From contig NZ_JAGKSQ010000001.1 of the NCBI RefSeq assembly GCF_017939705.1, positions 124,001-188,000 on the forward strand: a DNA stretch of 64,000 bases, written 5' to 3'. Source of the DNA: Halalkalibacter suaedae. GTDB taxonomy: Bacteria; Bacillota; Bacilli; Bacillales; Bacillaceae_D. Under the pieces are notes generated by a model. The model saw only the letters and a list, made by a program, of their open reading frames with translations, was not told where the DNA came from and did not search any database. The position numbers were made by a program, and so were the translations under genes. Below, piece by piece: positions 18,820 through 52,543 of this stretch. The number at the start of each line of letters is the position of its first letter. Position 1 is the first letter of the stretch.

Positions 18820-18925
18820 ACCTCCTCATATACTCAGACTCGCCATCCTAGGTAGGCCTAAGCCGTTTTAGAACCTATTCTGTGCGGTTGTAGTTGTTTG
18901 GGTGCGACCAAATAACTAACAAACG
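18820..18925 (-). ncRNA. L21 leader RNA
   Basis: The 5' untranslated region of rplU contains GGATGGCGAGTC (18838-18849 on the minus strand) just before the ribosome-binding site. It also has a TTTGG-TCGCACC-CAAA hairpin (18898-18913) and pyrimidine/purine blocks that pair nearby. These match the L21 leader family known in Firmicutes, thought to bind L21 for autoregulation. Ends are approximate. Confidence 0.75.
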
Positions 18926-32178: not shown

Positions 32179-32258
32179 TTGTTTATGCACCCCTTTCTAC
32201 CAATTAACGAATGATATAGTTCATTCTATTAAACCAATCCGATTGATAGAACAAAAAA

Positions 32259-32322: not shown

Positions 32323-33087
32323 TTATTGGTCTTCTTTTACTCCATAGTACAATGGATTAGATTTATTACTAGGATCTTCATGATCATGTGTCGGTAAATC
32401 CTCCTGCAATTCAGAAAGTCCAGGCAAATAATAAGTAGAAACTTCGATTGTATATTGAAGGTCATCAACTGTCTGATCAAGCAAACGTACTTCCTGGTTC
32501 CCTGAAAATGTCAATTGATTAACAGTAGTAATTCGTTGAAGCTTCTCAATCTCCTTTAGAAACACCATCATCTCATCATAGCTAGGCGAAACAACAGTCA
32601 TTTGGGAAGTAATCTTTTCGATACCTTCTGGAGTTGGCACCTCTCCCTCATTAACCGCATCAGAATCAGTTACATCTGTTTGTTGTTCTTCCATTCTAGT
32701 ATCCATTTCTTCTTCCAATGTAGCGGCTTCATCTGATTCGAGACCTTCAAATGAACTCATTGAAAATTGATAATTTAAAATAAGACTTTCAGAAAGAATT
32801 TCCGACCTTTCTAAATCTAATAAGAACTGATCCAGAAGAGGTGCAACAGGTACCTGTTTTTGAAGACCAGTTGAATTTAACGTTGTAATTTGAGTTTCTC
32901 GTTTAGCTAGTTCAGACTCAACGGATGCTAAGAGCTGTTCCTCTGTTTCAAGCTGTTGTGTTGACCTATCCAACTCAAGCTTTAACGGCTTCACGTACGT
33001 ATAATAGAGGAAAAACGGTATCGCAATGAGTAATAATGTTATAAAAGCGATTAATAATCGCTTGACCCCTGGCTGTAATTCAACCAT
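32323..33087 (-). CDS. pilO: type IV pilus inner-membrane protein PilO-like
   Basis: The 254-residue protein has one N-terminal transmembrane helix (about 10-29), a coiled coil (about 33-68) and a late ferredoxin-like region (TSQMTVVSPSYDEMMVFLKEI split over about 160-180). These match PilO layout. Between them lies an acidic stretch (about 110-150) rich in Glu and Asp that typical PilO lacks. It should pair with PilN and link to PilM to form the alignment complex under the pilus machine. It overlaps pilN by 1 bp and ends the operon. Confidence 0.8.
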   Translation of the reverse strand: MVELQPGVKRLLIAFITLLLIAIPFFLYYTYVKPLKLELDRSTQQLETEEQLLASVESELAKRETQITTLNSTGLQKQVPVAPLLDQFLLDLERSEILSESLILNYQFSMSSFEGLESDEAATLEEEMDTRMEEQQTDVTDSDAVNEGEVPTPEGIEKITSQMTVVSPSYDEMMVFLKEIEKLQRITTVNQLTFSGNQEVRLLDQTVDDLQYTIEVSTYYLPGLSELQEDLPTHDHEDPSNKSNPLYYGVKEDQ

Positions 33088-33671
33088 TACTCATCTCCCT
33101 CCTCTTTCAGCAATTCTGCTACATTCAGTTTCACAGTGAAATCCGCTAGATAGCGAGGAAGGATCTCTTCCTCTGAATCTTCTACCTCTTCCATCTCTTC
33201 AGCTGTGATCGAAAGCAGATTCGCTTCTTCAATGAACGTGCTATCTGTTAGCTCAAACAAATAGGCTGACACTTCAGCAGGAGTATCAAATTGAATTGAA
33301 ATTTGAACAGTTCCTTCATCAACAAAAGTATAATTCATGAAATAACCACGCTCTGGCAGCTTTTCTACAAATCGAGAGAGAAGATCAGCACTTGACATTT
33401 TCTGTTTCTGAATCCAGTTAATTTGGCTCTCGATAACATCTATTGTCGATGCCTCTGGGGTTTCCTGTAGCTTCTGTTCTTGAATTCCGCGTAACTGCTC
33501 GGTCACTTGTATTGTTTCCTGTGTTGTCTGAAGTTCAGTTTTTAATGAATTGTAATGAAAGAAAAAGATAATTGAAGAAATAATTATAATAGCAAGAATC
33601 ACAAGAATGACAATAAGTGATGTGAGACTTCTCTCTTTTCTCTTAGGTAGTAAATTTATTTCAACAATCAT
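33087..33671 (-). CDS. pilN: type IV pilus assembly protein PilN-like
   Basis: The 194-residue protein starts MIVEINLLPKRKER. The N-terminal INLLP motif is the PilN signature that docks into PilM. A transmembrane helix (about 17-42) and a coiled coil (about 44-85) follow, then a compact external domain. It overlaps pilM by 4 bp and pilO by 1 bp, so the three are translated together. Confidence 0.85.
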   Translation of the reverse strand: MIVEINLLPKRKERSLTSLIVILVILAIIIISSIIFFFHYNSLKTELQTTQETIQVTEQLRGIQEQKLQETPEASTIDVIESQINWIQKQKMSSADLLSRFVEKLPERGYFMNYTFVDEGTVQISIQFDTPAEVSAYLFELTDSTFIEEANLLSITAEEMEEVEDSEEEILPRYLADFTVKLNVAELLKEEGDE

Positions 33672-34648
33672 TTCGGCACCTCTTTTAAAGCTAATCCCAT
33701 TGTCGTTAAATAACGAGGAGCAATTGAGAAACCCGCTTCATTAAACAGATCAGTAGCACTCTCGAGTTTAATTGGTAAGCTCTCATTCATCTGATTGTAG
33801 ATATGCTTGATGTAAGGGTGATCACCTGTTAAAACTAGATGAGAAACTTCGGCCTCACCTTTATGAAGCGAATATTTATAGAAATTCAGTATCCGTTCAA
33901 TTTCTCCAATGGTATCTTGTAAATCACTATATAAAATCATTTCATCCCCAGTAAAGTGGAGCTGAACCATTTCCTGACTTTCTTCAATTTCAAATTGCTC
34001 GACGTGTCCTGCATTAACAAGATGATGCACGTATTTAGGTTTATGCTGGTGAAAAATACTAACACCAACTGCATCGACATCAAATTCGATAAACATGAGA
34101 TGTTCTTTCGGATCAACCCGGTCAAGTGTAAATAACAGCCGGTACATTGCAAGAGCATTAATTTCAATTGAAACAGGATTGATTTTCGCTTCCTCCAGTA
34201 CACTTACGTATTCTTGAATGATTGGTTCTGGGGCAGCAAAGAGCAATATTTTCTTACCATTATCAACATTATCTAACGTCACATAATCAAAGAAAGGATT
34301 TGCAAACGGTAGTGGAATGCTATTACCAAGCTCCATGAACAAATACCCTTTTATTTCCTCCTTTTTTATAGAGGTTGGTATTGAAAGCTCCCGAAAGAAT
34401 ACATGAGCATCCGGAACAATAAAATGAACGTCCTTCCTCCGCAAGCCCCATTCGTCGACACATTCCTCTAAAATCATAACTAGACGGTCACGATCAATAA
34501 TTTTTCCATCTCGAATCACTCCAGTTGGCAAATACTTCTCACCAGAGGAGAGTGGATCAGTAATATCATTATGATTCATCATCGCATAGCGAATCACATG
34601 ATCTTTGATGATCAGGCTGACTGACTTTGATTTTTTAAATTTAAACAT
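33668..34648 (-). CDS. pilM: type IV pilus assembly ATPase-like protein PilM
   Basis: The start at 34648 (MFKFKKSKSVSLIIKDH) follows GGAGGAG five bases upstream. The 326-residue protein has the actin-like PilM/FtsA fold: an opening SLIIKDHVIRYAMM strand pair, VHFIVPDAHVFFRELSIP near residue 85, FIEFDVDAVGVSIFHQ near residue 200 and HLVLTGDHPYIKHI near residue 280. It is cytoplasmic and binds the INLLP tail of PilN. It begins 15 bp after pilD. Confidence 0.85.
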   Translation of the reverse strand: MFKFKKSKSVSLIIKDHVIRYAMMNHNDITDPLSSGEKYLPTGVIRDGKIIDRDRLVMILEECVDEWGLRRKDVHFIVPDAHVFFRELSIPTSIKKEEIKGYLFMELGNSIPLPFANPFFDYVTLDNVDNGKKILLFAAPEPIIQEYVSVLEEAKINPVSIEINALAMYRLLFTLDRVDPKEHLMFIEFDVDAVGVSIFHQHKPKYVHHLVNAGHVEQFEIEESQEMVQLHFTGDEMILYSDLQDTIGEIERILNFYKYSLHKGEAEVSHLVLTGDHPYIKHIYNQMNESLPIKLESATDLFNEAGFSIAPRYLTTMGLALKEVPK

Positions 34649-34662
34649 GTGTTCTCCTCCTT

Positions 34663-35415
34663 CTACAACTGATGCCAATACCAAGTAATTAAATCTTCAC
34701 CAACGAACAGGCTAACTAAGGCCCCGACCACGATAAAAGGTCCGAATGGAATCGGTTGTCCACGCTTTGCCTTTTTTAAGGCAATGGCAATAATCCCAAA
34801 AACCGCTCCAACAAACGAAGCAAAAAAGAGCGTTAACAAGGTAAGCTGCCAGCCAAGGACAAAGCCAAGAACAGCAAACAACTTAATATCGCCTCCACCC
34901 ATGCCCCCTTTACTGACAACAGCGATAAGGAACAACACCCCGAACCCTACCAATGCTCCAACGTAAGACTCCCACCATGGAACAGCTGGAAATACTAATC
35001 GGTAGATAAGGAAGCATCCTCCAAAAAAGAGCAATACCTTATCGGAAATAATCATATAAGCCAAATCAGAAACAAGAATAATCATAAGCAAGGAACAAAA
35101 TAACAAAAGTAATGGCAATTCCTTTGACCAGCCCACTGCTAAAAATGAGATCGTAAAAAGAGATGCCGTTGCAAGTTCAATTGCAGGGTATATCAAAGAA
35201 ACCGATGTCTTACACTTTCGACAACGACCACGTAAAAACAAATAAGAAAAAACAGGAATGAGTTCAAAAGCCTTTAACTGATGACCACAAGACGTGCAAT
35301 GAGACGGTGGTGCCACAATCGATTCACCTTTAGGAATACGAAGACCGACAACATTAAAGAAAGAGCCGAAGATGAGGCCGAAGATAAATACTATAACAAT
35401 GTAAATCATGTCCAT
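34663..35415 (-). CDS. pilD: prepilin peptidase PilD/ComC
   Basis: The 250-residue membrane protease (start taken at M4, 35415; 35424 is possible) has the zinc-binding pairs CTSC and CRKC (about residues 40-75). Its catalytic aspartates lie in VSDLAYMIISD and GMGGGDIKLF. It cleaves and N-methylates prepilins such as the three with clear prepilin motifs here. By position (next to spoIIB) it corresponds to comC of B. subtilis and may also serve the competence pseudopilus. Confidence 0.93.
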   Translation of the reverse strand: MDMIYIVIVFIFGLIFGSFFNVVGLRIPKGESIVAPPSHCTSCGHQLKAFELIPVFSYLFLRGRCRKCKTSVSLIYPAIELATASLFTISFLAVGWSKELPLLLLFCSLLMIILVSDLAYMIISDKVLLFFGGCFLIYRLVFPAVPWWESYVGALVGFGVLFLIAVVSKGGMGGGDIKLFAVLGFVLGWQLTLLTLFFASFVGAVFGIIAIALKKAKRGQPIPFGPFIVVGALVSLFVGEDLITWYWHQL

Positions 35416-35434
35416 GTTACCCATCCTTTTTGAA

Positions 35435-35466
35435 AGAGGATGATACTGGTGAGAGTATCATCCTCT
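35435..35466 (-). terminator. hairpin between pilin gene and pilD
   Basis: A perfect 13-bp stem (35435-35447 and 35454-35466, loop of 6) lies 44 bp after the pilin stop. Its minus-strand tail is only TTTCAAAAAGG and runs straight into the pilD ribosome-binding site. It could be a leaky terminator or a stabiliser of the pilin mRNA 3' end. Confidence 0.6.
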
Positions 35467-35509
35467 ATGTTTGTAAATAATTTTATTAGCTCTACTACTA
35501 GTTTCAGGA

Positions 35510-35959
35510 TCAGTCTGTGTTTTCTTCTCCTTCTTCAGCTACTTCTCCAGGTAGAGTTACATCCCCTCTAACTAATTGTGAAGCATCTTCAGTAGAACCA
35601 GTAATATAGTTCATCAATGTAACTCGGTATTCTCCATCGACCAAATTAACAGTCACAGCATCACCTGTATATGCATTATCAGTTGAAGGATCACTAATTA
35701 CTCCTAAGTAATCATTCTCTTGTAAGACAGTTAAAGTAACTGCGTTATCAGGGTCATTTTCTGTAGCAAAATATAATTTCGCTGCATTAGCAATCTGCTG
35801 AGCATTAGCCACGTGAGCATCTCGTCTTGAATTCTCCATAATATTCCCAATAGAAACAACCGCAATCGCCGCAATAATCCCAATAATAACAATAACGACT
35901 AAAAGTTCAATAAGTGTTAAACCACGTTCGTTCTTCATTACTTTCAATTTTTTAAACAT
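35510..35959 (-). CDS. major type IV pilin candidate
   Basis: The start at 35959 (MFKKLKVMKNERGLTLIELL) has GAGG nine bases upstream. The class III signal is cut after Gly in NERG-LTLIELLVV, leaving Leu1 and Glu5, followed by a hydrophobic helix VIVIIGIIAAIAVVSIGNI. The mature globular part is about 110 residues, cysteine-free and acidic at the C-terminus (EVAEEGEENTD). Its own -10 element and the hairpin after it suggest separate, strong expression, as for a major pilin. The gene is between pilC and pilD. Confidence 0.85.
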   Translation of the reverse strand: MFKKLKVMKNERGLTLIELLVVIVIIGIIAAIAVVSIGNIMENSRRDAHVANAQQIANAAKLYFATENDPDNAVTLTVLQENDYLGVISDPSTDNAYTGDAVTVNLVDGEYRVTLMNYITGSTEDASQLVRGDVTLPGEVAEEGEENTD

Positions 35960-36082
35960 CCATACATTCCTCACTTTTCGTTTTTTTTGGTTAAATAGCG
36001 ATGTTAACCTCATGATCAAAGACGTAGTCACTTACTCATAAATAACTAAATGAATACTGCTTTCATACCTAACCTTTTACCT

Positions 36083-36088
36083 ATTATA
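36083..36088 (-). promoter_or_regulatory. candidate -10 of the pilin promoter
   Basis: TATAAT on the minus strand lies in the 164-bp gap between pilC and the pilin ATG, about 120 bp upstream of the start. No good -35 is seen at 16-18 bp, so the promoter may need an activator. Confidence 0.4.
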
Positions 36089-36123
36089 CTACTATCCGAC
36101 AAAAAAACATACTAGTTTTACAG

Positions 36124-37329
36124 TTAAATTTCCCCATAAATTTGAAACATTGGCACCATAATCGCAATGACAATAACGCCGACAACTCCGGCTAATAAAA
36201 CGATCATTAATGGCTCAATTAACGATTTTAGGCGGTCAGTAATGTTCTCGACTTCTTGTTCATAAAAATCGGCGACCTTTTCAAGCATTAGATCAAGTGA
36301 ACCGGTTTCTTCCCCAATTGAAATCATTTGAACGACAAGGGGTGGAAATACCCACGACTTTCGCATTGGCTCGGTTAACCTTTCACCATTTTCAAGAGCA
36401 TGACGCGATTGTTTCATAATTGCGGCAATTACTTCATTACCAACAACTTTCTCAACTATTTTTATCGCTTGTAAAATAGGGACAGAGCTTGAAAAAAGGG
36501 AACTAAGTGTTCGCGTCATTCTTGCCAATGCTGCAAGCTGTAGCAATTTTCCAAATATCGGCATCTTAAGAAGTACAAGATCTAAATAGTAGCGACTCTT
36601 TTTATTCTGCTTAATCATCTGTAGAGCAATGATAAATATAAGTACAATAACCAGTAAAACCCACCAATAAGATTGTAAAAAGTCACTAGAGTTTAAGACA
36701 AATAGAGTAATCGCTGGTAACTCTCCACCTAAACTTGAAAGCATGTTCGCGAATGTAGGAACAACCGTTGTTAGCAAAAAAATTACAACACCGATTGCAA
36801 TAATTCCTACAACGACTGGATAGGCGAGTGCGGAAATGACTTTTTGTTTCGTTTTATGCTGCTTCTCAAAATGAATCGCTAAACGGTCTAATGCTTCATC
36901 CATTGTCCCGCTCAATTCCCCTGCTTTGATCATATTAATCACAATCGGAGGAAAGATTCTTTTATGTTTAATAGCAGCTTCAGAAAAAGGAAGTCCTGAT
37001 CGAAGCTCTTCTTCAATCACTTCTAACGCTTTACGTAGTGCTTTACTACTCGTTTGTTTTGAAAGGATATTGGTTGATTCAACGATCGACACACCAGCTT
37101 TTAATAGTGTAGAAAACTGGCGTAAATAAATCGCAAAGTCTTGTAGTCTGACAGGATTTCCAAATGAAATCTCTTTATTTAATCCTGTTGCCTTTACCTC
37201 TTCTAGCTCTTGGACAGCAATATGGCGTTCTTTGAGTTTAATAGCTGCTTCTCGCTTGGATTGACTAACAACCGTTCCTTTTTTTACTTTTCCGGAGAGG
37301 TCTCGACCAGCATATTTGAATTGTGGCAT
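36124..37329 (-). CDS. pilC: type IV pilus inner-membrane platform protein PilC
   Basis: The 401-residue GspF/PilC-family protein starts [20 protein letters not shown], the standard opening. Two homologous cytoplasmic domains each hold the family phrase: FPPIVINMIKAGELSGTMDEAL and FPPLVVQMISIGEETGSLDLML. Three transmembrane helices lie near 170-190, 220-238 and 372-392. It transmits PilB/PilT motor action to the pilus base. It overlaps pilT by 1 bp. Confidence 0.95.
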   Translation of the reverse strand: MPQFKYAGRDLSGKVKKGTVVSQSKREAAIKLKERHIAVQELEEVKATGLNKEISFGNPVRLQDFAIYLRQFSTLLKAGVSIVESTNILSKQTSSKALRKALEVIEEELRSGLPFSEAAIKHKRIFPPIVINMIKAGELSGTMDEALDRLAIHFEKQHKTKQKVISALAYPVVVGIIAIGVVIFLLTTVVPTFANMLSSLGGELPAITLFVLNSSDFLQSYWWVLLVIVLIFIIALQMIKQNKKSRYYLDLVLLKMPIFGKLLQLAALARMTRTLSSLFSSSVPILQAIKIVEKVVGNEVIAAIMKQSRHALENGERLTEPMRKSWVFPPLVVQMISIGEETGSLDLMLEKVADFYEQEVENITDRLKSLIEPLMIVLLAGVVGVIVIAIMVPMFQIYGEI

Positions 37330-38369
37330 TAGTTACTCTCCTTTTGTAAATAAGGTTCAGCGATTTCTGCGGAGATCTTCTGCTGCTCGACCAATGTCTT
37401 GATTGACATATCTAATGTATGCATCCCGACCGACTTACTCGTTTGCATGACATTTTGAATCTGATAGATCTTTTCATTACGAATTAAATTCGCAACAGCC
37501 GAATTATTAATCAATACTTCTGTCGCAGCACATCGACCTTTACGATCTGTCGTTACAAACAAACGCTGCGAAACAACTGCCTTTAAGACACTTGCCAGCT
37601 GGATACGGATCTGGGCCTGTTGAATGGGTGGAAATACATCAATGATTCGATCAATTGTTGAAGGACCACTTGTTGTGTGCAATGTCCCTAAAACAAGATG
37701 GCCTGTCTCCGCTGCCGTAATCGCCGTTGAAATTGTTTCAAGGTCTCGCATTTCTCCAACCAAAATGACGTCTGGATCTTGCCTTAATGACGCTCTAAGA
37801 CCATTAACAAAATTATTCGTATCAAATCCAATTTCACGTTGATCAATAATACATTTTTGATGCTTATGCAAATATTCAATCGGATCTTCAAGCGTAATAA
37901 TATGGCGACTCATATGTTCATTCATATAATGAATAAGAGCTGCTAATGTCGTTGACTTCCCGCTACCAGTTGGTCCTGTAACTAGTACGAGTCCTTGTGG
38001 CAGCCCTGCAATCTTCTCTAAAATCGCAGGCATCTGCAGAGATTCTAATGTTGGAATCACCGTTGGAATGACACGAATTGCAAGACTCAAACATGATCGC
38101 TGGTAGAAGGCATTTATTCGAAATCGAGACACTTGAGCAATCCCATAAGAAAAGTCAACCTCACCATTTGACTCAAGCTTTGCTTTTTGACTATCATTTA
38201 ACAATGCCATCGCCATTCCTTCAGTATCCTCGGGGAGTAACTTATCTTTACCGTATCGTTTCAAATCACCATTTATCCGAAAAATGGGGGGGACACCAAC
38301 TGTAAGATGAATATCAGAGGCATTAAGCTGAAATGCAGCACGAAGTAAATGATCAATTCGTTCCTTCAT
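37329..38369 (-). CDS. pilT: pilus retraction ATPase PilT
   Basis: The 346-residue hexameric ATPase has ASDIHLTVGVPPIFRING at the N-terminus, Walker A GPTGSGKST at 132-140, the Asp box in ITLEDPIEYLH, Walker B DPDVILVGEMRD and the His box GHLVLGTLHT. A C-terminal AVANLIRNEKIYQI corresponds to the AIRNLIRE retraction motif, with differences. PilT removes pilin subunits and powers twitching; its presence argues for a true retractile pilus. It lies between pilB and pilC. Confidence 0.95.
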   Translation of the reverse strand: MKERIDHLLRAAFQLNASDIHLTVGVPPIFRINGDLKRYGKDKLLPEDTEGMAMALLNDSQKAKLESNGEVDFSYGIAQVSRFRINAFYQRSCLSLAIRVIPTVIPTLESLQMPAILEKIAGLPQGLVLVTGPTGSGKSTTLAALIHYMNEHMSRHIITLEDPIEYLHKHQKCIIDQREIGFDTNNFVNGLRASLRQDPDVILVGEMRDLETISTAITAAETGHLVLGTLHTTSGPSTIDRIIDVFPPIQQAQIRIQLASVLKAVVSQRLFVTTDRKGRCAATEVLINNSAVANLIRNEKIYQIQNVMQTSKSVGMHTLDMSIKTLVEQQKISAEIAEPYLQKESN

Positions 38370-38389
38370 CTATGACATACCTCCGTCCT

Positions 38390-40054
38390 TTAATCACTGG
38401 TCACGACACGTAATATTTCTTCAGTTGTTGACAATCCTTGTTTCACTTTTAATAATCCATCATCAATTAAAAAAATCGTGCCCGCTTTAATTGCATACTC
38501 CTTAATCTCACTTGAACTCCGGTTATTCATGATCATTTTCTTAATTGTTTCATCAATAACGAGAATTTCATGGATTGCGAGTCTTCCCTTATAGCCAGTC
38601 ATATTGCAAATCGGACAACCTTTCCCTCGAAACACGGTCGTTACCTTCATCCCACGTTTGGCAAAGATCATTTTCTCACGTTCTGTTGCTTCGACTTCTG
38701 CTTTGCAATCCCGACAGATGCGACGAACTAAACGTTGTGCGACTACTCCACTTAATGATGAAGCCACTAGAAACGGCTCAAGCCCCATATCAATAAGTCT
38801 TGTTACAGTACTAATTGAGTCGTTCGTATGAACCGTACTTAAGACTAAATGACCTGTTAATGAAGCTCGAACGGCAATTTCTGCAGTCTCAGCATCACGA
38901 ATCTCTCCGACCATTACAATGTCCGGGTCTTGTCTAAGAATGGCACGAAGTCCTGCTGCAAAAGTCATTCCTACCTTGGCATTCACTTGAATTTGATTAA
39001 TTCCTTCAAGCTGGTACTCGACCGGGTCCTCAACAGTAATAATATTTACTTCCTCAGCGTTAAGTCGGTTTAAACTCGCATATAGCGTCGAGGATTTCCC
39101 AGATCCAGTTGGACCTGTAATTAAAACGATGCCTGTTGGTTTCTCAATCATTTCGTTAAACCGCTTTATATGAATCTTATTAAATCCTAATTTATCAATA
39201 TCGTTAATAGAAGCTCCAAGGTCTAATATACGCATAACAACCTTTTCACCATAGACCGTTGGAAGAGTTGAGACACGTAGATCAACGGGATGGAATTCAA
39301 GGCTTACTTTAATCCTGCCATCCTGGGGAACACGACTTTCAGTAATATCTAAATTAGCCATAATTTTAATTCTCGCAATGAGAATATTTTGCATATGCTT
39401 TGGCAATATTCGTTCTGTTTTCAAAAGCCCATCAACGCGGTAGCGAATGAGTACTCTCGTTTCTTGAGTATCGATATGAATATCACTTGCTCGTTGCTGA
39501 ACAGCACGTAACAATAGCTGATTAACAAGCTTGACAATGGGTGCCTCTTCATTTGTTACTTCATCTTGTTCCTTTTCATTAATAACACCTAAATCATCCA
39601 ACAGCTCATCGACTGCATCATCATCTGTATCATAATATTTATGGGTTGTTCGAATGATATCGTCCTTTGTGGCAATGGCTACATCAATTTGGAAACCTGT
39701 TGATAGGCGCAACTCATCAATTGCATAGTAATCCATTGGATCTGCCATCGCAACAAGGAGCTTATCGCCTTCCTTTTTCAGCGGCATAATGAGGTTTCTC
39801 GTTGCCATTTCCTTTGGTATCATCTTAGTCACTTGCGGATCAATCGGATATCTGTATAAACTGACATGCGGAATTCCAAGCTGAAACTCAAGAACTTCAA
39901 TCAATTGCTGATCTGTGATAAAGCCTTGTTGAAGAATGGCATCACCAAGCTTTTGATTAGCTGACTTCTCAGCCAATGTTTGCTTCAGTTGCTTTTCCGA
40001 GATTAATCCAGATTCGACTAACAAATCACCTAATCGCTTCCTAGTCTTGGCCAT
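38390..40054 (-). CDS. pilB: pilus assembly ATPase PilB with MshEN domain
   Basis: The start at 40054 (MAKTRKRLGDLLV) is nine bases after AGAGG; an ATG two codons earlier is too close. The 554-residue ATPase opens with an MshEN domain: two 24-residue repeats, RLGDLLVESGLISEKQL and KLGDAILQQGFITDQQL, at about 7-30 and 35-58. The motor has ASDIHIDTQ, Walker A GPTGSGKSS (314-322), ITVEDPVEYQ, Walker B DPDIVMVGEIRD and GHLVLSTVHT, and a zinc site CRDC/CPIC. MshEN repeats bind c-di-GMP in known homologues. It extends the pilus. Confidence 0.95.
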   Translation of the reverse strand: MAKTRKRLGDLLVESGLISEKQLKQTLAEKSANQKLGDAILQQGFITDQQLIEVLEFQLGIPHVSLYRYPIDPQVTKMIPKEMATRNLIMPLKKEGDKLLVAMADPMDYYAIDELRLSTGFQIDVAIATKDDIIRTTHKYYDTDDDAVDELLDDLGVINEKEQDEVTNEEAPIVKLVNQLLLRAVQQRASDIHIDTQETRVLIRYRVDGLLKTERILPKHMQNILIARIKIMANLDITESRVPQDGRIKVSLEFHPVDLRVSTLPTVYGEKVVMRILDLGASINDIDKLGFNKIHIKRFNEMIEKPTGIVLITGPTGSGKSSTLYASLNRLNAEEVNIITVEDPVEYQLEGINQIQVNAKVGMTFAAGLRAILRQDPDIVMVGEIRDAETAEIAVRASLTGHLVLSTVHTNDSISTVTRLIDMGLEPFLVASSLSGVVAQRLVRRICRDCKAEVEATEREKMIFAKRGMKVTTVFRGKGCPICNMTGYKGRLAIHEILVIDETIKKMIMNNRSSSEIKEYAIKAGTIFLIDDGLLKVKQGLSTTEEILRVVTSD

Positions 40055-41381
40055 CTTCATTCACCTCTTCTTCTCCCTTGACAGGTTCTGTTTCATCATT
40101 TTCGACAATCGTTTCTAAGTCTGAATCTTGATCAATGTCTTGGCTCTCTTCACTCTCTAAACTTTCTTCGCTTTGATCATCACTTTGCTCGTTTGTATTA
40201 GTCAGCCCTGGAGAGGATCCGCTGACCTCTTGATCGAGTAAGCTTCTTTCAACAACGCGATGAATGGGACGATAGAAATCTTCTGTCACTAATTCGCGTT
40301 CAATCAATGATCCATTTCTGTCTATTTTCTTTCGATAGACACTAACGAAGTAGCCATCGCTTCCTTCAACTACTGTTCTACTTGATCCCTTTTGTACTTT
40401 GGCTGAGTATTGCAGTATTGTCCTCGGATGGATTGTTTTCTCATTTTCTAGTTCGGTTTCGTAAGTATGTTCTAAAGGAGGTCCTTTAATCATTATGACT
40501 AAGCGATTAGCTTCTAGCTCGAAGTTCAATGTATAGGTATTAAGAGTAGTATTAACAAAAACAAAATCATCGTCTTCATCTACAAGAACGTCGAAACCGA
40601 CTTTGGTATACTCAGGCTTTTCATTTCCAATCGATCGTTCAATAACATCAAAATCGGTTTGAAGAACCGCTTCATATAATACGGATGCGACAATGGAACG
40701 TGCAGTATCATTTTGTTCTGTCATTCCCATTTCTGTAAGAACACGATTCATTGAAAATGATTGCTCACCTTCTATCGAATAACCATCAAGCACTGTAACA
40801 ATTTGATGTATTCCCTCAAATATATCTGTTTCAATTGTCGCCGTTGCCACTGTTTCTGGGGCTAGGGCTGAATGAATTTTGTATTCTTTTAAATTAAATG
40901 ATAGATTCTTAAGTTGTAAATGGGCCACTTGCTCGGTGATATCAGCTATTAATTGCCTAGTATCAATCGTCTCTAATTGAACAGGTAGTGCTTCTACCGC
41001 TTCTAAGAAATAAGACTCATTGATCTTTGCAATTAACCCCTTTGTTGCTGCATCTTCTGCTAGTGAAACACTTTCCACGATGTTAAAGTCAATGGCTTGA
41101 TGTGACAAGATAACCTCATGTTCCGCATATTCCAACGTCACGGTTGTACCTTGCCGCCATAGCTCAACCTCTTCTTCAAGAACAGCTCGTGCCGACTCTG
41201 TAGTAAGTCCAGCTATACTTGTTGATGCAATAATGGTGTTCTCTTGGAACGTTTCCTCACCTACTATAAGCTGAAGAATGAAGGATGCCACCATTGTGAA
41301 AAGTAGAACACCGAACAGACTGCTCCCTAACAAGATGAGTGTCTTACCATAATTTAATTTAGTTTGTTGTTGAACACTCAT
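40041..41381 (-). CDS. VanW/G5-like surface protein of the pilus locus
   Basis: The 446-residue protein has one N-terminal transmembrane helix (about 15-38). A region of YoaR-like repeat (ASTSIAGLTTESARAVLEEE) and a VanW-like domain (about 215-295: FSMNRVLTEMG, ASVLYEAVLQTDFDVIERS) follow. A G5-like segment (about 320-385) and a very acidic tail complete it. The GGGICQ-type loop of typical VanW is missing. Its 3' end overlaps pilB, so it belongs to the pilus operon. It may act in the wall or at the membrane as a guide or anchor; this is inference. Confidence 0.7.
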   Translation of the reverse strand: MSVQQQTKLNYGKTLILLGSSLFGVLLFTMVASFILQLIVGEETFQENTIIASTSIAGLTTESARAVLEEEVELWRQGTTVTLEYAEHEVILSHQAIDFNIVESVSLAEDAATKGLIAKINESYFLEAVEALPVQLETIDTRQLIADITEQVAHLQLKNLSFNLKEYKIHSALAPETVATATIETDIFEGIHQIVTVLDGYSIEGEQSFSMNRVLTEMGMTEQNDTARSIVASVLYEAVLQTDFDVIERSIGNEKPEYTKVGFDVLVDEDDDFVFVNTTLNTYTLNFELEANRLVIMIKGPPLEHTYETELENEKTIHPRTILQYSAKVQKGSSRTVVEGSDGYFVSVYRKKIDRNGSLIERELVTEDFYRPIHRVVERSLLDQEVSGSSPGLTNTNEQSDDQSEESLESEESQDIDQDSDLETIVENDETEPVKGEEEVNEDGQD

Positions 41382-41399
41382 TTGAACAGCCCCTTATTA

Positions 41400-42128
41400 T
41401 TACTCAACGCTCATTGATAGTTGGATGAATGCTGCTTGACTGTTAGATTGAACCGCCTTAATAACTTCTTCAGTTAAGACGTCTCCTTCACTTACTAATA
41501 ATTCACCATCTACACCATGGATATTGTCAGTTACTATTTTCCCTTTTAATAGCTCAATTTGTTTTTGGATTACTTCATCATGTTCAACGCTATCTTCCAT
41601 CTCCGGTACAGCTACTTCTCTACTCGAAAGATCTGTTGTTTGTCCCAGACTCTTCGTAAATTGATTCAAACTATCTTCATGAACAATTAACATCTCTTTA
41701 CCAATCGTCACCACATTTTCAAACGACAATATCGCATCTTCGCGATTATTCAATTCAATAGCTGCTAACCTGCCATTTTCGTCATCCACATAAAATTCGA
41801 CGACCTCTTCTAATAACTCACCTTTTCGAGTCATCACTTTATTACCAATCATTTTGATATTTCGATTTACTAGTGTATTAGCAATAGGAATTTCAGTTAA
41901 ATCAATAATATTGTTCTCATGTTCGATTGTTACAGCATAGTCACCTACACCAATAATTTTTTTGAACGGAACAGCCTTCATCGTCACTTGCCAATTCTCA
42001 TTTTGAACTGTTAAAAAGTCAACAGTCTTATTTTCTGGATTGATAATTAACGTCTTAACCGTACCAACTGTTTGCCCGTCCTGAATACTAATTAATGGTA
42101 GTCCGATAATCTCCACACTTTTCTTCAT
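41400..42128 (-). CDS. protein with two PRC-barrel domains
   Basis: The 242-residue protein has two small beta-barrel repeats: the first starts IIGLPLISIQDGQTVGTVKT (residues 8-27) and the second MIGNKVMTRKGELLEEVVEF (about 93-112). Such PRC-barrels bind proteins or RNA and also occur in sporulation and photosynthesis proteins. The C-terminal third is acidic and helical. No signal peptide or membrane segment is seen. It lies between an acidic membrane protein and the VanW-like gene, 18 bp from the latter, so it is probably a cytoplasmic accessory of the pilus operon. Confidence 0.75.
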   Translation of the reverse strand: MKKSVEIIGLPLISIQDGQTVGTVKTLIINPENKTVDFLTVQNENWQVTMKAVPFKKIIGVGDYAVTIEHENNIIDLTEIPIANTLVNRNIKMIGNKVMTRKGELLEEVVEFYVDDENGRLAAIELNNREDAILSFENVVTIGKEMLIVHEDSLNQFTKSLGQTTDLSSREVAVPEMEDSVEHDEVIQKQIELLKGKIVTDNIHGVDGELLVSEGDVLTEEVIKAVQSNSQAAFIQLSMSVE

Positions 42129-42161
42129 CTTCTCTACTCCTTCAACGTTTCACTCAAAACG

Positions 42162-43469
42162 TTATTGAATTTGGTTTAAATAATAATTGATCTCTTCAAG
42201 CAACACAGGTTGATGTACATAGCGTTCTCTCAAATCGAGCATAAGATTCTTCAGTTTTACATAATCCTGCTGACTAATGTATAAATCACGAAGCAATGAT
42301 GCAAATAGGTAGTAATCACGCGGATGTAATTTATTTTGAAGATTCCCTAGAAGAGTTTGCTCATACAATTCTTCACCGTTCTGCTTTTTAATCCAAGTTA
42401 ATTCCTTTAGCACAAGTGACAATATGCCCGAATCCATTCGCTTTCCTTCAGCTTCCGTTCCATTAGATAAAGAGCTCTTATCAATATCTGTCTCATCTGC
42501 TGTTGCTGTATCCTCTAGCTTCTCGGGTGCTTCATTTGGTCTTGTTTCAACACGTACATCAGAATCAGTTTCTTCATTCTTTAATTCTTCAAGCACTTCT
42601 GTCTCTTCTTCAGTTGCATCAACTGTCTCATCATTTACTAAATCATCGATTTCTTCAAATGTAACTTGATTTGGATTAATGACATTTTCTTCACTTTTTT
42701 CTTCTGTTTCGACAACATTTTTCGCAATTGTTGGAACATCAATCGAGAGTGGAATACCTTCTTGTTCTTCCTTTAATAAGATCCCTTCATCTTCGACCTC
42801 AGCAAATAATTGTTCGCGATTTTCAAACAGTTGTTCATCTTCAGAATCACCACCATCAGTTAAATCAACAACCTCTCTCTTCTTAGGTACTTCTCTCTTT
42901 CTTAGCAGAAAGTCAAATTCATCTTCAGATTCGGAGTCTTCCTCGAAGGAGTTGGATACTTCATTGATCTCATCTTCAACTAATTCTTCAGTTATATCTT
43001 CTTTAGGAATCTCAGCTAAATGATCCAGAACAGGAATTTCACTAGTAAGATCGAGATTCACTTCTTCTTGAAGAAATGTTTCTTCTTCCAACTCCTCCAA
43101 TTCTATGTCGTGGTGTTCAGCCTCCACTTCCACTTCATCAATGTAATTCACTTCAACTTCATTTTCGATCTTCTCATCTTTTACAGTCTCATGCCTTTCG
43201 ATCTGTGAAAATCCTACATCATCAGTTTGATTTTCCTGCACTAGGATGACTCTAGTAAAAAACAAATAAGCTGTTAAAGGTAAGAGAGTACAAACAGCAA
43301 AAATCGCTACCCATGTTGAACCTAGGTTGACTAAAGCTAAATACAGTAAAGTCAATAGTAGTGTGTTCAGGATAACGATATACCTGGCCTTCTTCGTTAA
43401 CGCAACAGGTAAGAGAGGCAATATAAAGTACAAAACTAAAGCTCCTACAAATGGAAAAATATAGATCAT
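42162..43469 (-). CDS. acidic membrane protein of unknown function, pilus locus
   Basis: I recognise no family for this 435-residue protein. It has three hydrophobic helices at the N-terminus (about 2-22, 30-50 and 53-72). A very long acidic, low-complexity stretch (about 78-340) rich in Glu, Asp, Val and Ser follows. A C-terminal helical domain of some 90 residues (ILSLVLKELTWIKKQNGEEL onwards) could be TPR-like. It is the first gene of the minus-strand pilus operon (33 bp before the PRC-barrel gene) and diverges from the minor-pilin operon. A membrane-bound scaffold is possible. Confidence 0.7.
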   Translation of the reverse strand: MIYIFPFVGALVLYFILPLLPVALTKKARYIVILNTLLLTLLYLALVNLGSTWVAIFAVCTLLPLTAYLFFTRVILVQENQTDDVGFSQIERHETVKDEKIENEVEVNYIDEVEVEAEHHDIELEELEEETFLQEEVNLDLTSEIPVLDHLAEIPKEDITEELVEDEINEVSNSFEEDSESEDEFDFLLRKREVPKKREVVDLTDGGDSEDEQLFENREQLFAEVEDEGILLKEEQEGIPLSIDVPTIAKNVVETEEKSEENVINPNQVTFEEIDDLVNDETVDATEEETEVLEELKNEETDSDVRVETRPNEAPEKLEDTATADETDIDKSSLSNGTEAEGKRMDSGILSLVLKELTWIKKQNGEELYEQTLLGNLQNKLHPRDYYLFASLLRDLYISQQDYVKLKNLMLDLRERYVHQPVLLEEINYYLNQIQ

Positions 43470-43627
43470 TTTAACTACCTCATTTTTATATTCTCAATTG
43501 CACGATAAACGATGCGTCTTTTTCCTTATATAGTGTATAATAAATGACAATAGATTAAAAGAAAAGACTAATTTGTAACCCATTAGAACTAGTTCCTTAT
43601 TTAGGGAAATGTTAGGAGAGAATTTCT

Positions 43628-44092
43628 TTGCGTAGAGCGAAATTTCATAAAGATCAAAAAGGTTTTACATTAGTGGAAATTCTGGTCTCATTAGTATTAT
43701 TATCCATTGTACTACTAAGTTTTTTAACGATATTCACCTATACAAATCAAGTCGCCGTCCGTAATAACGACACATTAGTCGCCGTAAATCTCGCAAAACT
43801 CACTCTAGCAAGACTTAAATCTGATCCATTTTCATATATTGAGTCACCTAATCTCTCTCCTTCACCTTCATACGTCCTAGGAACAAAAGCATATAATCAT
43901 AGCTCTTGTACAAATGAAACATGTGAGTCTTTCTATCAACCACTTGTTAATGATCGTGTTTACGCAGTTTCAATTACAGCAAGTCAATCAACTTCCGAGA
44001 AAACAAATCATTTAATTAATGTTCATGTAACAGTCACTCTTCCAGAGACACCAATATCTAGTAAAGTAGAGGGCTATGTCATCTATGATTAA
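43628..44092 (+). CDS. minor pilin, PilV/PulG-like
   Basis: A TTG start with AGGAGAG seven bases upstream opens a 154-residue prepilin. The cleavage motif is DQKG-FTLVEILVS with Glu5 and a hydrophobic helix SLVLLSIVLLSFLTIF. The globular part has a cysteine pair in SSCTNETCESF. It is the first gene of a plus-strand operon of three pilin-like genes and overlaps the next. The layout matches minor-pilin priming complexes of other type IV pilus systems. Confidence 0.85.
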   Translation: MRRAKFHKDQKGFTLVEILVSLVLLSIVLLSFLTIFTYTNQVAVRNNDTLVAVNLAKLTLARLKSDPFSYIESPNLSPSPSYVLGTKAYNHSSCTNETCESFYQPLVNDRVYAVSITASQSTSEKTNHLINVHVTVTLPETPISSKVEGYVIYD

Positions 44093-44594
44093 AAACCTAC
44101 AATCACAAAGAGGGATTACACTTATTGAGATATTAGTAACGTTAGTATTAATCACCCTCATAACAATTCTAGCAGCGAGCATGTTAACTAATGGACTAAA
44201 AACGGCTGAGAGAGTTAAGGTTGAAGCCGAAATTAGGGATGAAGCTGATTACTTGATGGTTCAGCTACTCAATGAATTGTATTTACTTAAGACAAGTGAA
44301 ATCCAATCCAAACAACTTCAAGACCCTGCAAATCCCTCACACTCCTATTTAGTAGTACGGAAGACGGGAAGCAGCACAAATCACCAACTCGGCTTGGCAG
44401 ATGGAAAGGTTCTACTTGAATCAGCAACCCTCGAGCCAAGTAGTGATGACATCCTACTTGAACCCGAATCACAAATTAAAGAAATAAAACAGGGGCATTA
44501 TCAAATCACATTAGTATTAAAATCAACAGTAAATAATAGGGAACTCGAATTAACGACGGAAGTTCAGATCATTACTGATAAGGAGGGTGAATAA
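44085..44594 (+). CDS. minor pilin, PilW/PulJ-like
   Basis: The start at 44085 (MIKNLQSQRGITLIEIL) is inside the end of the previous gene; 44076 is the alternative. The 169-residue prepilin has the motif SQRG-ITLIEILVT with Glu5 and helix VTLVLITLITILAASML. The globular domain has no cysteines. It overlaps the next gene by 1 bp. It is presumably a member of the pilus tip or priming complex. Confidence 0.82.
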   Translation: MIKNLQSQRGITLIEILVTLVLITLITILAASMLTNGLKTAERVKVEAEIRDEADYLMVQLLNELYLLKTSEIQSKQLQDPANPSHSYLVVRKTGSSTNHQLGLADGKVLLESATLEPSSDDILLEPESQIKEIKQGHYQITLVLKSTVNNRELELTTEVQIITDKEGE

Positions 44595-46414
44595 TGAAAT
44601 ATCTTAATGAGCGAGGTTATTCACTCCTTTTAACACTCGTTATTACACTCATTTTTGGATTACTTGCGACATTATTACTCTCAATGACAATGGGCGGCTT
44701 CCTACGAACAGAAATTAGAGAAGATGTTGTCCAAGTTGAGGAAGTTACGGAAAAAGGGTTAGACCATTTAAGCCAAGAAATACAAACGAAGCTAGAGGAA
44801 ATGATTGGTACCTCCGGAATACCAAGAGAGCAATTTATTACAAAATTAAATGAAACACTAAACAACTATACATGTACGAGTAGTAAGCTTGAAAACAGTG
44901 GCGAAACAGGAGACTATTCCGCGTGCCTCTCAGCGATTGAACCAGTCACAAACGCAGACGGAACTGAGAATGAATTACGAAAGAAAATCACTTTATTGAG
45001 TAGAGGTATAGTTGATGGGCGAGAAAGAGAACTTAAGACAACTATGGAGGTTGGATCTCAATCTGTGCCGGATGCGTTAAATTATGCGTTAGGGGCACAT
45101 ATCCTATGTAAAAGTAATGATTCTTCTTGCTCCCAAATACCAGGTGAAGGAAACATGTTTTTGCACGGTGGTGTGGATATTTATGGAGATGTAAAAGTAG
45201 ATGGAGATTTAATAACAACGGATCGGGGTTACGCTTTTTTTAGCGGCAGTGAGCAATGGATCGATTCACTTTATCCAAGTATCCGTGGAACTAAGCCTTC
45301 TCAAATAGGTAATGTCGTTTTGGGTGGAAATGTTTACTCATTTAATTCAACTCCAACATATGCGAATCATATAAGACGTAACTCATTCTCATCTACTTAT
45401 ACAAAAAAAACTAACTCATTACAAGATGCCTTTACCATAGCTCCACAGATCGTTGCACGACAACCAACACGAAAAACCCATAACATTTTAGAGCAAAAGA
45501 AAAATAATGAATATGCTTATAATGATCCCGGAGTAACATATTTATCGGGAAGTCATAATGTTACTACCTCTGGGTTACATTATCCTAACAGACGAGTGTT
45601 TATCGGTTATGGATATGGATGGTACGGTACAGAAATTCGTGGCTTAACTTTGACTGGAACCAATACATTTGGGAACCTTTTTGTAAATGGTGATTTAAAG
45701 CTGACAAGTTCAAATTCGAGGGAAACAAGCAAGGCAACCTTCCTAAACGGATTATTTGTTGATGGAGACTTGACGATTGGAAACAACTCATCAAGTTATG
45801 ACCCAAGTAATTACGCAAAAATACAATTATTCGGAAATATCTATGTAACAGGTGATTTAATCATCAAAGGAGCAGACGCCGAAGTGGACGCCATTATTAA
45901 TGTAGGAGGTAAAGTCATTGATGAAAGTACAAAGGTTGAAAGATGGAGTAATACCCTCGTAGAACATTCAAGGTTAGCAGGGCTTCCTAAAGGGGAAAAA
46001 GAAATTGGTTCGTTAATTGTTTTCTCAAAAGGAACAATAACAATCCGTAATAATAGTGTATATCAAGATGATCCAAGTGAAATTAAAGGTTATTTCTATT
46101 CTGATGATGCATTTGAAATGTTCGGGGTAGGATCTAACATTAAAATTATTGGAGGAATATCAGCACGAAGAATTGTGCTAAATGGAGTAAGAGGAATGTC
46201 AGACACTAGCTCTTTTCCTAATTCTGTTCGATATGGCAATAGAAATGATTGGTATTATTACCATAACAGGACAGCCCAGACAAAACAAAATTCACGTCTT
46301 CAAGTCATATATAATGAAAAAATCGACAAGATTTACTCAGACTTACAAGCAAATGAACCAATCATTACTTCAATCGATAAACCAAAACTGTTAAATCGTG
46401 AAGTGGTCGAATAA
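44594..46414 (+). CDS. large PilX-like minor pilin with repetitive exodomain
   Basis: The 606-residue protein opens NERGYSLLLTLVITLIFGLL, a prepilin-like segment whose fifth residue after Gly is Leu, not Glu. Such loss of Glu5 is seen in GspK/PilX-type tip subunits. Residues 70-160 are helical and polar. From about 185 on, repeated short strands (GGVDIYGDVKVDGDL, GNLFVNGDLKL, LFVDGDLTI, GNIYVTGDLII) suggest a beta-helix or polymer-forming fold, like adhesins or bactofilin. Four cysteines (two near 95-110, two near 173-180) could form disulphides. It is probably a pilus tip or adhesin protein. Confidence 0.75.
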   Translation: MKYLNERGYSLLLTLVITLIFGLLATLLLSMTMGGFLRTEIREDVVQVEEVTEKGLDHLSQEIQTKLEEMIGTSGIPREQFITKLNETLNNYTCTSSKLENSGETGDYSACLSAIEPVTNADGTENELRKKITLLSRGIVDGRERELKTTMEVGSQSVPDALNYALGAHILCKSNDSSCSQIPGEGNMFLHGGVDIYGDVKVDGDLITTDRGYAFFSGSEQWIDSLYPSIRGTKPSQIGNVVLGGNVYSFNSTPTYANHIRRNSFSSTYTKKTNSLQDAFTIAPQIVARQPTRKTHNILEQKKNNEYAYNDPGVTYLSGSHNVTTSGLHYPNRRVFIGYGYGWYGTEIRGLTLTGTNTFGNLFVNGDLKLTSSNSRETSKATFLNGLFVDGDLTIGNNSSSYDPSNYAKIQLFGNIYVTGDLIIKGADAEVDAIINVGGKVIDESTKVERWSNTLVEHSRLAGLPKGEKEIGSLIVFSKGTITIRNNSVYQDDPSEIKGYFYSDDAFEMFGVGSNIKIIGGISARRIVLNGVRGMSDTSSFPNSVRYGNRNDWYYYHNRTAQTKQNSRLQVIYNEKIDKIYSDLQANEPIITSIDKPKLLNREVVE

Positions 46415-46418
46415 ATAT

Positions 46419-46446
46419 AAAAAGCCTCAATAATCCGAGGCTTTTT
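46419..46446. terminator. bidirectional terminator after the minor-pilin operon
   Basis: Arms AAAAAGCCTC (46419-46428) and GAGGCTTTTT (46437-46446) serve the plus-strand operon and the converging GGDEF gene. Confidence 0.88.
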
Positions 46447-46459
46447 ATTATATTTATAT

Positions 46460-48196
46460 TTAAATTAGCTCTTCAATTATAGATTCAGCTTCCTTAACAG
46501 AATAATAAGTCGCCACCCGGTCACGGCCCTTCTGTTTCGCTCCGTTATACATCGCACGATCCGCTTTACGAATTAGAGTTACCGCATCACTCTTCTCATC
46601 CTCTTCCGCAGTTTCAGAGCTTGCCACTCCAATACTCGCTGTCACATTAATTCTAGCAGTGACATGCGACGATAGATCTTGTCTAACAAAAAAGGGGGAT
46701 TCCTTTAGAACAGCTTGAATTCTTAGCCCTACTTGATAAGCCTCATCGACTGTTGTATTAGGAAGCAGTAAGACAAATTCCTCCCCGCCATACCTGGCAA
46801 CAGTCACCCCTTGTCTAACCGTTCCGACTAACCGGTTCGCGACTTCAATCAGCACTTCATTGCCGCTTTGATGACCATATGTATCGTTAATTCTCTTGAA
46901 ATGATCCAGATCTAACAAAATAAGTGAAGCAATCTGATCTTTTTTCTCAAGTGTTTCATGAAGGACTTTTTCAAAATATCTATAATTATATAAACCTGTA
47001 AGTGGACAATGATAGCTTTGCTTACGACTTTTCTCTAATTGCTTTACATTTGAAAGGGCGATCGACAGCATATTGGCGATAATTTCCACCACCATCACTT
47101 GCTGTTGGAGAAAGGCTTTTTGCTTTGATGAAGCAATGGTTAAAACCCCTTTCACCGTTTGCTGAGACTTTAATGGAACAGATATTATTGTTTCAAGATG
47201 ATTCGGTAGATTCGCACCTAGTGATAACCATTGTTGACGCATATCTGCCATTTCTATTTTTTCGCTTTTGATGACCAGCTTACTAAAGGCATCACCATAT
47301 TTTAATGTCAAAGGCACAGCTTCCTCACCTTTTTGGTGCATATAGCTTAGCGATAACTTCTCCTCGCCTACTCGATATAAATATAGTTGATCCCATTCCA
47401 AAAATAGCTCCAGTCGTTTACAAACCCTATTCATCAACTCTTGCTCTGTCATACTAGAATTGAGTTCATAACCAACGTTTGTCACTTCCTTCAACAGATC
47501 GTTCATTCGTTCCGTACGTGTGTAAGCTCTAAGAAAAAAAGATGATACAAAAAACACAATTCCTGTAAAGACAACGGCTAGGATTCCAATCTCCCAAAAT
47601 AAAACGACAAGGATCAACGCCGTTGGTAGAAGGACACAGCCAATAATCAGCTCACGCTTCAATCCTTTGACTACATTTTGATTTTGAATGATGAACACAT
47701 ATCTTTTCACAGTAAAAATAAGAAGATGATTCACGAAATGAAACGTTAGTGCATACAGCAAAATTGCATGCCCATGTAGTAAGAAAGAAAACGACTCACC
47801 CGTTTGACCTCCGACAATATAGAAGGCTAGTGCTGAAGTACTAGATGTTATAAAAAAAATTAAAGAGTTGATTGGAATACGATAAAGGGTTGAGCGATTT
47901 AATCCTGATGCAATTAATGCAGCTACTACACCAATTTGAGTCGTTACAACCTCAACTCCAAAACCAAATACGATGAATATAGCAATGGCTAACCATTGAA
48001 ATAATGTTAGATTATGATTGCGATAATAGATTGGAAACATTGCAGTTACTATAACTAAAAGTAGGAATGATAGCACTTCTAAAGATATAAATGCAGAAAA
48101 AACCTCCACTTGTCCAAGTGCAAACAAAAAAAGAGTGAACACAACTAACCAGCCTGACCATATCCATTTATTCTTTTGTGCTGACAATCTGTCCAC
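46460..48196 (-). CDS. membrane GAF-GGDEF diguanylate cyclase
   Basis: The 578-residue protein has about seven transmembrane helices (residues 12-230), a GAF-like sensor domain (about 245-395) and a GGDEF domain (about 405-570). The active site reads RYGGEEF (GGEEF at 470-474) with metal/substrate Asp in LILLDLDHFKRIND. The I-site RxxD is replaced by RQGV, so product inhibition is probably absent. It should make c-di-GMP from two GTP. It lies between folC and the pilus locus, close to a PilB with a c-di-GMP-type domain. Confidence 0.92.
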   Translation of the reverse strand: MDRLSAQKNKWIWSGWLVVFTLFLFALGQVEVFSAFISLEVLSFLLLVIVTAMFPIYYRNHNLTLFQWLAIAIFIVFGFGVEVVTTQIGVVAALIASGLNRSTLYRIPINSLIFFITSSTSALAFYIVGGQTGESFSFLLHGHAILLYALTFHFVNHLLIFTVKRYVFIIQNQNVVKGLKRELIIGCVLLPTALILVVLFWEIGILAVVFTGIVFFVSSFFLRAYTRTERMNDLLKEVTNVGYELNSSMTEQELMNRVCKRLELFLEWDQLYLYRVGEEKLSLSYMHQKGEEAVPLTLKYGDAFSKLVIKSEKIEMADMRQQWLSLGANLPNHLETIISVPLKSQQTVKGVLTIASSKQKAFLQQQVMVVEIIANMLSIALSNVKQLEKSRKQSYHCPLTGLYNYRYFEKVLHETLEKKDQIASLILLDLDHFKRINDTYGHQSGNEVLIEVANRLVGTVRQGVTVARYGGEEFVLLLPNTTVDEAYQVGLRIQAVLKESPFFVRQDLSSHVTARINVTASIGVASSETAEEDEKSDAVTLIRKADRAMYNGAKQKGRDRVATYYSVKEAESIIEELI

Positions 48197-52292: not shown

Positions 52293-52543
52293 AAAAAAAA
52301 CCCCTCCATCCAAAGGACGAAGAGAGTTGCTTTTCGCGGTACCACCTTTGTTTGCAGTATAGACTCATACTGCACACCTCAAACTGATAACGGTCAGTGT
52401 CCGGCCAAGCTTACTGATGTTCAGCAAGGCTGCTCATAGGCGACATTCAATTCGTACATCTTAAGAAATCTCTCAGCTATTGATTTCTCTCTCTTGAAGG
52501 TTCCGAATTTACTCTTCCTAATCAGTGCGTTCGTGTATATGTG
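52293..52543 (-). ncRNA. T-box leader of valS
   Basis: The T-box sequence AAAGGTGGTACCGCGA (52334-52349 region, minus strand) precedes a terminator hairpin CTCTTCGTCC-TTT-GGATGGAGGG followed by a run of T (52293-52325). Stem III is visible as GCAGTAT/ATACTGC near 52354-52373. A GTC triplet in GAATTGAATGTCGCC (near 52441-52455) is a good valine specifier candidate. Uncharged tRNA-Val should pair with both places and allow read-through. Confidence 0.92.

Follow-up and report, generated by a model that had tools for sequence, protein, structure and literature searches.

Introduction

In the monoderm bacterium Streptococcus sanguinis, a type IV pilus that PilT retracts and that is independent of the Com pilus drives twitching at about 0.7 μm/s and pulls with about 70 pN (PMC4832360). 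In the Bacillales, the type IV pilus locus of Paenibacillus thiaminolyticus comprises pilB-T-C, pilins, alignment genes and an MshEN module in PilB, and the deletion of pilT-pilC-pilB reduces virulence in mice (PMC9765702). Imam et al. reported in 2011 pil operons in Geobacillus thermodenitrificans, G. kaustophilus, Exiguobacterium sibiricum and Bacillus sp. NRRL B-14911, and the passages of that study cited here place pilT in several pil operons of Gram-positive bacteria (PMC3244431). In addition, an Anoxybacillus genome paper mentions type IV pilus assembly genes and interprets them as gains (PMC2614493). Here we describe a pil locus of Halalkalibacter suaedae (contig NZ_JAGKSQ010000001.1), which occupies positions 32323-46414 of the window, i.e. 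the whole stretch of 64,000 nucleotides that was analysed.

How does this locus compare with these systems? The kind of pilus that it encodes is already known in Bacillus-like bacteria. Like the S. sanguinis pilus, it includes PilT and stands apart from the Com pilus; however, S. sanguinis has the extra genes pilI, pilJ and pilK, and VanW is not mentioned in its description (PMC4832360). It shares the gene content listed above with P. thiaminolyticus, whose operon lies on a mobile-element insertion missing from the reference strain (PMC9765702), whereas the locus in the window sits at a conserved chromosomal site. As in the Bacillales described by Imam et al., the pil operon occurs beside one com operon, but the passages cited here do not discuss synteny at the folC site, comC as a residue, or cassette exchange (PMC3244431). 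Clostridial pil operons also contain pilB, pilC, pilD, pilM and pilN, although the Clostridium perfringens-type operons, as described in the same passages, have no pilT within the operon. The best overall explanation of our observations, to which we assign a probability of roughly 80%, is that the locus encodes a complete monoderm type IVa pilus machine and is an old resident of its site, that the lone comC of other genomes is its residue, and that cassettes have been swapped in place.

Results

Gene content of the pil locus

Along the - strand, folC is followed by a GAF-GGDEF gene, three minor pilin genes on the + strand, again on the - strand the genes for an acidic membrane, a PRC-barrel and a VanW/G5 protein, and then pilB, pilT, pilC, the pilin gene, pilD, pilM, pilN, pilO, spoIIB, maf, radC and mreB. 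The original prediction had placed the pil genes and three minor pilin genes between folC and spoIIB, in agreement with the intact open reading frames and family scores found here; its gene list omitted 40041-43469 (VanW/G5, PRC-barrel, acidic membrane protein) and the GAF-GGDEF gene (46460-48196). The catalytic motifs of PilT, PilB and PilD are retained. Several gene junctions overlap (pilO/pilN, pilN/pilM, pilC/pilT and pilB/vanW), which suggests a single transcription unit; a promoter scan gave a site count no higher than in shuffled sequence.

PilT is the firmest gene call of the locus. Its alignment with the solved PilT of Aquifex (2ewv; E 7.5e-104) spans the full length, and GPTGSGKST and ANLIR are conserved. 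PilO is the weakest call, and it is named partly by position because its PF04350 score falls under the cut-off. The N_methyl profile matches three of the four class III prepilins (the pilin and two minor pilins), and the fourth is recognised from its sequence only. The components of a type IVa pilus are thereby all represented: PilB, PilT, the platform protein, the prepilin peptidase, major and minor prepilins, and PilM, PilN and PilO, the last supported by position. Judged by its genes, the locus encodes a type IVa-like pilus system that includes PilT and differs from the comG pseudopilus, and its interpretation as a complete gene set for a retractable, truly extend-and-retract pilus is well supported. 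This part of the original prediction stands, although such a pilus in a monoderm is not new, since the cited passages of the 2011 study already report Bacillales pil operons with pilT (PMC3244431).

The genome, assembled into 30 contigs (4.3 Mb, completeness 98.7%), encodes a separate competence machine, with comGA/comGB on contig C11 (at about 1.8 kb), ComGC on contig C26 (96.5 bits) along with further com-type pilins, and ComEC on contig C24. Together with the PilT score of 473 bits against a cut-off of 319, these separate comG genes bear out the earlier claim that PilT and PilMNO are not part of the comG pseudopilus. The only A24 prepilin peptidase matched genome-wide is the pilD of the pil locus, so PilD must, we infer, serve the pilins of the pil and com systems alike. 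No secretin (PF00263) was found in the genome, an absence expected for a monoderm; the secretin lies outside the definition of a monoderm pilus.

The folC site in Bacilli

We surveyed 41 genomes of the window's GTDB family and 200 genomes drawn from the whole class Bacilli. PilT scores over the cut-off in 20 family genomes, every one at the folC site, and in 118 class genomes, from 64 of 93 genera. A retractable pilus locus is not unusual in Bacilli. In 53 of the 75 class genomes with both PilT and FolC matches listed, belonging to 23 families, pilT is found downstream of folC, in the same orientation and 0.1-16.5 kb away; chance alone would bring pilT so near to folC in well under 1% of genomes of such size. 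We read 20 loci, one per family, which were selected for pilT near folC and therefore describe layout, not frequency. A full pil cluster is present in 18, and most continue into spoIIB-like, maf, radC and mreB genes. L155 and L167 are reduced to pilT and pilD, without pilB and pilC; between folC and spoIIB, L155 (family f41) has only these two genes, with no pilins at the site.

Between families, the more the flanking proteins have diverged, the more PilB+PilT+PilC have as well (Spearman 0.66, a value reached in 0 of 2000 permutations), and the same holds for PilD (Spearman 0.68; 1 of 2000). These results suggest that the pil locus has long resided at the folC-maf/radC/mreB site in Bacilli and is not an insertion. 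In a literature search for comC, folC and pilD, no paper turned up in which folC occurs together with the others.

Two gene orders occupy the site within the family: type A, as in the window, and type B, with the order pilA-pilD-minor pilins-pilM-N-O-B-T-C (L086, L087, L091, L109, L110).

Loss of the cassette and the lone comC

What remains at the site when the pilus genes are absent? Among the 21 family genomes lacking PilT, 20 have an A24 gene within 2.7 kb of folC (the remaining one, G036, has no FolC match), and the peptidase gene lies between folC and spoIIB in all 16 PilT-less family loci read. In the PilD tree, the orphan PilDs of L093 and L094 group with the type A locus L092, those of L088 and L089 with type B, and that of L099 with its type A congeners. 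Moreover, a remnant of a type B cassette is preserved at L089:918-3211. Here pilA and pilD, the latter intact, are followed by a minor pilin stub and a PilC fragment (residues 193-405, 87% identity to L086), and spoIIB comes next. Such a pattern is what one internal deletion would make of a type B cassette.

Because pil-less relatives keep pilD/comC at the site, several orphans match the cassette type of their kin, and one deletion remnant is preserved, the lone comC of B. subtilis-like genomes reads as a residue of the pil locus, an orphaned pilD. The need of both machines for the sole peptidase would account for its persistence when the remaining pil genes vanish. The original prediction, in which the locus was "inserted at the comC site", thus had the polarity backwards: the order folC-pil-spoIIB/maf-radC-mreB recurs in 23 families, and the gene-order comparison that it proposed speaks against insertion, with every PilT of the family at the folC site and pilD kept there in the pil-less members.

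Exchange of cassettes in place

The PilB+PilT+PilC tree and the PilD tree both unite the window with G023 (L097) and G011 (L108) in a single clade, and the three cassettes have the acidic and PRC-barrel genes in common. In the right-flank tree (spoIIB, maf, radC, mreB), G011 joins G008-G010 and the window joins G016/G022; in the left-flank tree (valS, folC), G011 again groups with G008-G010. Approximately unbiased (AU) tests, for clades that were named only once the trees had been seen, gave p 1.7e-5 when the window and G011 were forced together on the right flank, 3.9e-10 when the window, G023 and G011 were forced together on the left flank, and 1.5e-36 when G008-G011 were forced together in the cassette. 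The window's own position differs between the two flank trees. Whole cassettes, the window's own included, thus appear to have been replaced in place; recombination within the conserved flanks would be the simple mechanism.

The minor pilins of G023 (L097:2270-3607 and L097:3651-5842) are arranged unlike those of the window, while its remaining cassette is the closest relative, suggesting that the machine changes more slowly than its tip genes do.

Accessory genes and the third minor pilin

The features of the locus are collected in Table 1. The annotated end of pilM is less likely to be its start than an ATG at about 34648.

Table 1. Features of the pil locus and its surroundings, in window coordinates
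Feature	Position	Strand	Evidence or remark
folC	48212-49522	-	Left boundary of the pil locus
Membrane GAF-GGDEF diguanylate cyclase	46460-48196	-	PF00990 135 bits; GGEEF intact; 15 bases after folC
Bidirectional terminator-like hairpin	46417-46448		Between minor pilin and diguanylate cyclase genes
Large third minor pilin, 606 residues	44594-46414	+	PilX/GspK-like start without Glu5; sequence; homologues at same place in other families
Minor pilin, PilW/GspJ-like	44076-44594	+	PF07963 22.3 bits, cut-off 21.2
Minor pilin, PilV/GspI-like	43628-44092	+	PF07963 36 bits; TIGR02523 30 bits, below cut-off
Acidic membrane protein	42162-43469	-	No family match; N-terminal transmembrane segments, middle 30-40% D/E, C-terminal domain of about 105 residues
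PRC-barrel protein	41400-42128	-	PF05239 45 bits, two stretches
VanW/G5 membrane-anchored surface protein	40041-41381	-	PF04294 31 bits, PF07501 28 bits; 20-base overlap with pilB start
pilB, extension ATPase with N-terminal MshEN c-di-GMP module	38390-40060	-	PF00437 454 bits; PF05157 77 bits, cut-off 23; TIGR02538 631 bits, slightly under equivalog cut-off 675; NF053729 56 bits, cut-off 38
pilT, retraction ATPase	37329-38369	-	TIGR01420 473 bits, cut-off 319
pilC, platform protein	36124-37329	-	PF00482 (T2SSF) 208 bits, two stretches
Pilin, probable major, NERG/LTLIE	35510-36031	-	PF07963 (N_methyl) 36 bits
pilD/comC, A24 prepilin peptidase	34663-35424	-	PF06750 (A24_N) 117 bits; PF01478 (Peptidase_A24) 80 bits
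pilM, actin-like cytoplasmic alignment protein	33668-34684	-	PF11104 (PilM_2) 57 bits, cut-off 27; TIGR01175 77 bits, under cut-off 133
pilN, alignment complex	33087-33671	-	PF05137 25.2 bits, cut-off 22.8
pilO-like, alignment complex	32323-33087	-	PF04350 18.3 bits, below cut-off 22; place after pilN constant in all type A loci
spoIIB	31159-32190	-	Right boundary of the pil locus
T-box leader upstream of valS	52310-52534	-	Rfam
L21 leader	18826-18899	-	Rfam

The third minor pilin begins with NERG/YSLLLTLVI, a class III signal without Glu5. It has no match in Pfam or among PDB sequences, and it aligns with large third pilins (540-670 residues) at the same position in other families; relatives carry PilX_N and DUF7305. 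Its AlphaFold2 model is unusable (pLDDT 36), so the idea that it is a tip adhesin comes from its position and size, which make it a probable candidate.

The VanW/G5 gene is present in 13 of 15 type A loci of the family versus none of five type B loci. The AlphaFold2 model of its product is good (pLDDT 78.5), and a Foldseek search matches the C-terminal part to G5 domains of surface adhesins. Directly upstream of vanW, most vanW-containing loci encode a membrane protein whose tail is usually rich in acidic residues. The C-terminal domain of the acidic protein in the window is common to L097, L108 and L165, and shorter acidic membrane genes occupy the same spot in many type A loci. We considered homology of this protein to FimV/HubP and rejected it: the layout alone is alike, and no sequence support was found.

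Type A PilO proteins have about 250 residues and no SpoIIB-like domain, whereas three of five type B PilO proteins end in such a domain (E 1e-11 to 1e-14). These three (L086:7581-9110, L087:5641-7296 and L109) have 476-551 residues, and the domain resembles the neighbouring sporulation protein SpoIIB. In L091, a shorter PilO is directly followed by a SpoIIB-like open reading frame. A tentative possibility, which we think more doubtful than probable, is that type A cassettes carry a monoderm-specific module upstream of pilB (the acidic membrane protein with its C-terminal helical domain, often the PRC-barrel protein, and the wall-facing VanW/G5 protein) that may fix and position the machine within the thick wall, the role of PilP/PilQ/TsaP/FimV, and that type B cassettes, without VanW, have PilO fused to a SpoIIB-like wall domain instead.

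The cyclic di-GMP motif of PilB

The PilB of the window carries RLGDLLVESGLISEKQL and a second copy (QKLGDAILQQGFITDQQL), which is the MshEN arrangement. The profile of the MshE-type cyclic di-GMP (c-di-GMP) motif, NF053729, matches all 27 PilBs scanned and leaves the ComGA control unmatched. Given this motif, pilus extension is probably c-di-GMP-dependent. In Vibrio cholerae, c-di-GMP directly controls MSHA pilus activity, as stated in the part of the study cited here (PMC7096442).

The neighbouring diguanylate cyclase is an attractive candidate partner, and the GGEEF motif is intact in 26 of 26 such cyclases seen. The adjacency of folC and the cyclase gene recurs in eight other families at class level, and it also occurs where pil genes are absent (L088, L111). 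We rejected a tight link between cyclase and pilus as proven: the gene is part of the folC unit and persists in the pil-less L088 and L111.

Discussion

Proposed pilus cycle: PilD would cleave the pilins, and PilB, held by PilC and the PilM/N/O alignment complex, would polymerise them, with c-di-GMP probably switching on extension through PilB. The three minor pilins would prime or cap the filament, the 606-residue protein being the probable tip adhesin. PilT would then depolymerise the pilins. The likeliest use may be surface adhesion or biofilm contact with PilT-driven pulling, DNA being left to the separate comG machine. Filament formation, retraction and a role in adhesion or surface motility are thus predicted from the genes.

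Several observations weigh against parts of this account. The profile scores of PilM, PilN and PilO are weak, and their identities are partly positional. Repeated recombination at one site could imitate ancestral residence. In the PilD tree, no pil cassette is a clear match for the orphans of the pil-less genus g7 (13 species) or of G016/G022, which the right flank places as sisters of the window, so that in these lineages loss is deduced from synteny alone. As for c-di-GMP, the GGDEF gene sits in the folC transcription unit with a terminator between it and the pilins, and it occurs in 5 of 20 pil-containing versus 2 of 16 inspected pil-less family loci.

A recent insertion of a pil operon into an ancestral comC-only site would fit the patchy presence of pil in genus g1 (7 of 13), the conflict between the window's cassette and its flanks, by which this copy has moved, and the mobile pil operon of P. 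thiaminolyticus (PMC9765702). We nevertheless consider it rather unlikely, as the same pil site recurs in 23 families, a decay footprint survives in L089, orphan PilDs correspond to the lost cassette type, and the GC content does not shift at the pil locus. The window's cluster might instead be a decaying, silent relic, as decay is visible in the relatives L089, L155 and L167, but the window's open reading frames are all intact with overlapping junctions and the catalytic motifs of PilT, PilB and PilD are kept, which makes this very improbable.

DNA uptake in transformation as the main job is suggested by the retractable pili of Gram-negative bacteria, which take up DNA, and by the com genes of this genome; it is unlikely because a separate, dedicated Com machine exists here, as it does in 41 of 41 family members irrespective of their pil genes, and S. 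sanguinis does not need its type IV pilus for transformation (PMC4832360). It is extremely unlikely that the genes are a renamed competence (comG) or type II secretion operon. The pilin-like proteins do match com and type II secretion pilin models weakly, and PilB also scores 623 bits against GspE. Yet a comG pseudopilus has a short ComGA without MshEN, ComGC as its major pilin, and neither PilT nor PilMNO, and a type II secretion system has a secretin and no PilT; this locus has a PilT far over its cut-off and MshEN in PilB, with none in ComGA, and the genome has no secretin. The search for a separate com operon, suggested along with the original prediction, settled the competence version: comGA/GB, ComGC and ComEC lie elsewhere in the genome.

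If the locus is an old resident, the retractable pilus would be a common and probably ancestral fixture of Bacilli, masked since B. subtilis keeps only comC at the site. This gives a testable account of why comC stands beside folC, namely as an orphaned PilD that would persist because the Com system needs it. In addition, the locus suggests that c-di-GMP governs how pili extend in Bacillus-like spore formers, and it draws attention to wall-facing accessory proteins that have yet to be studied.

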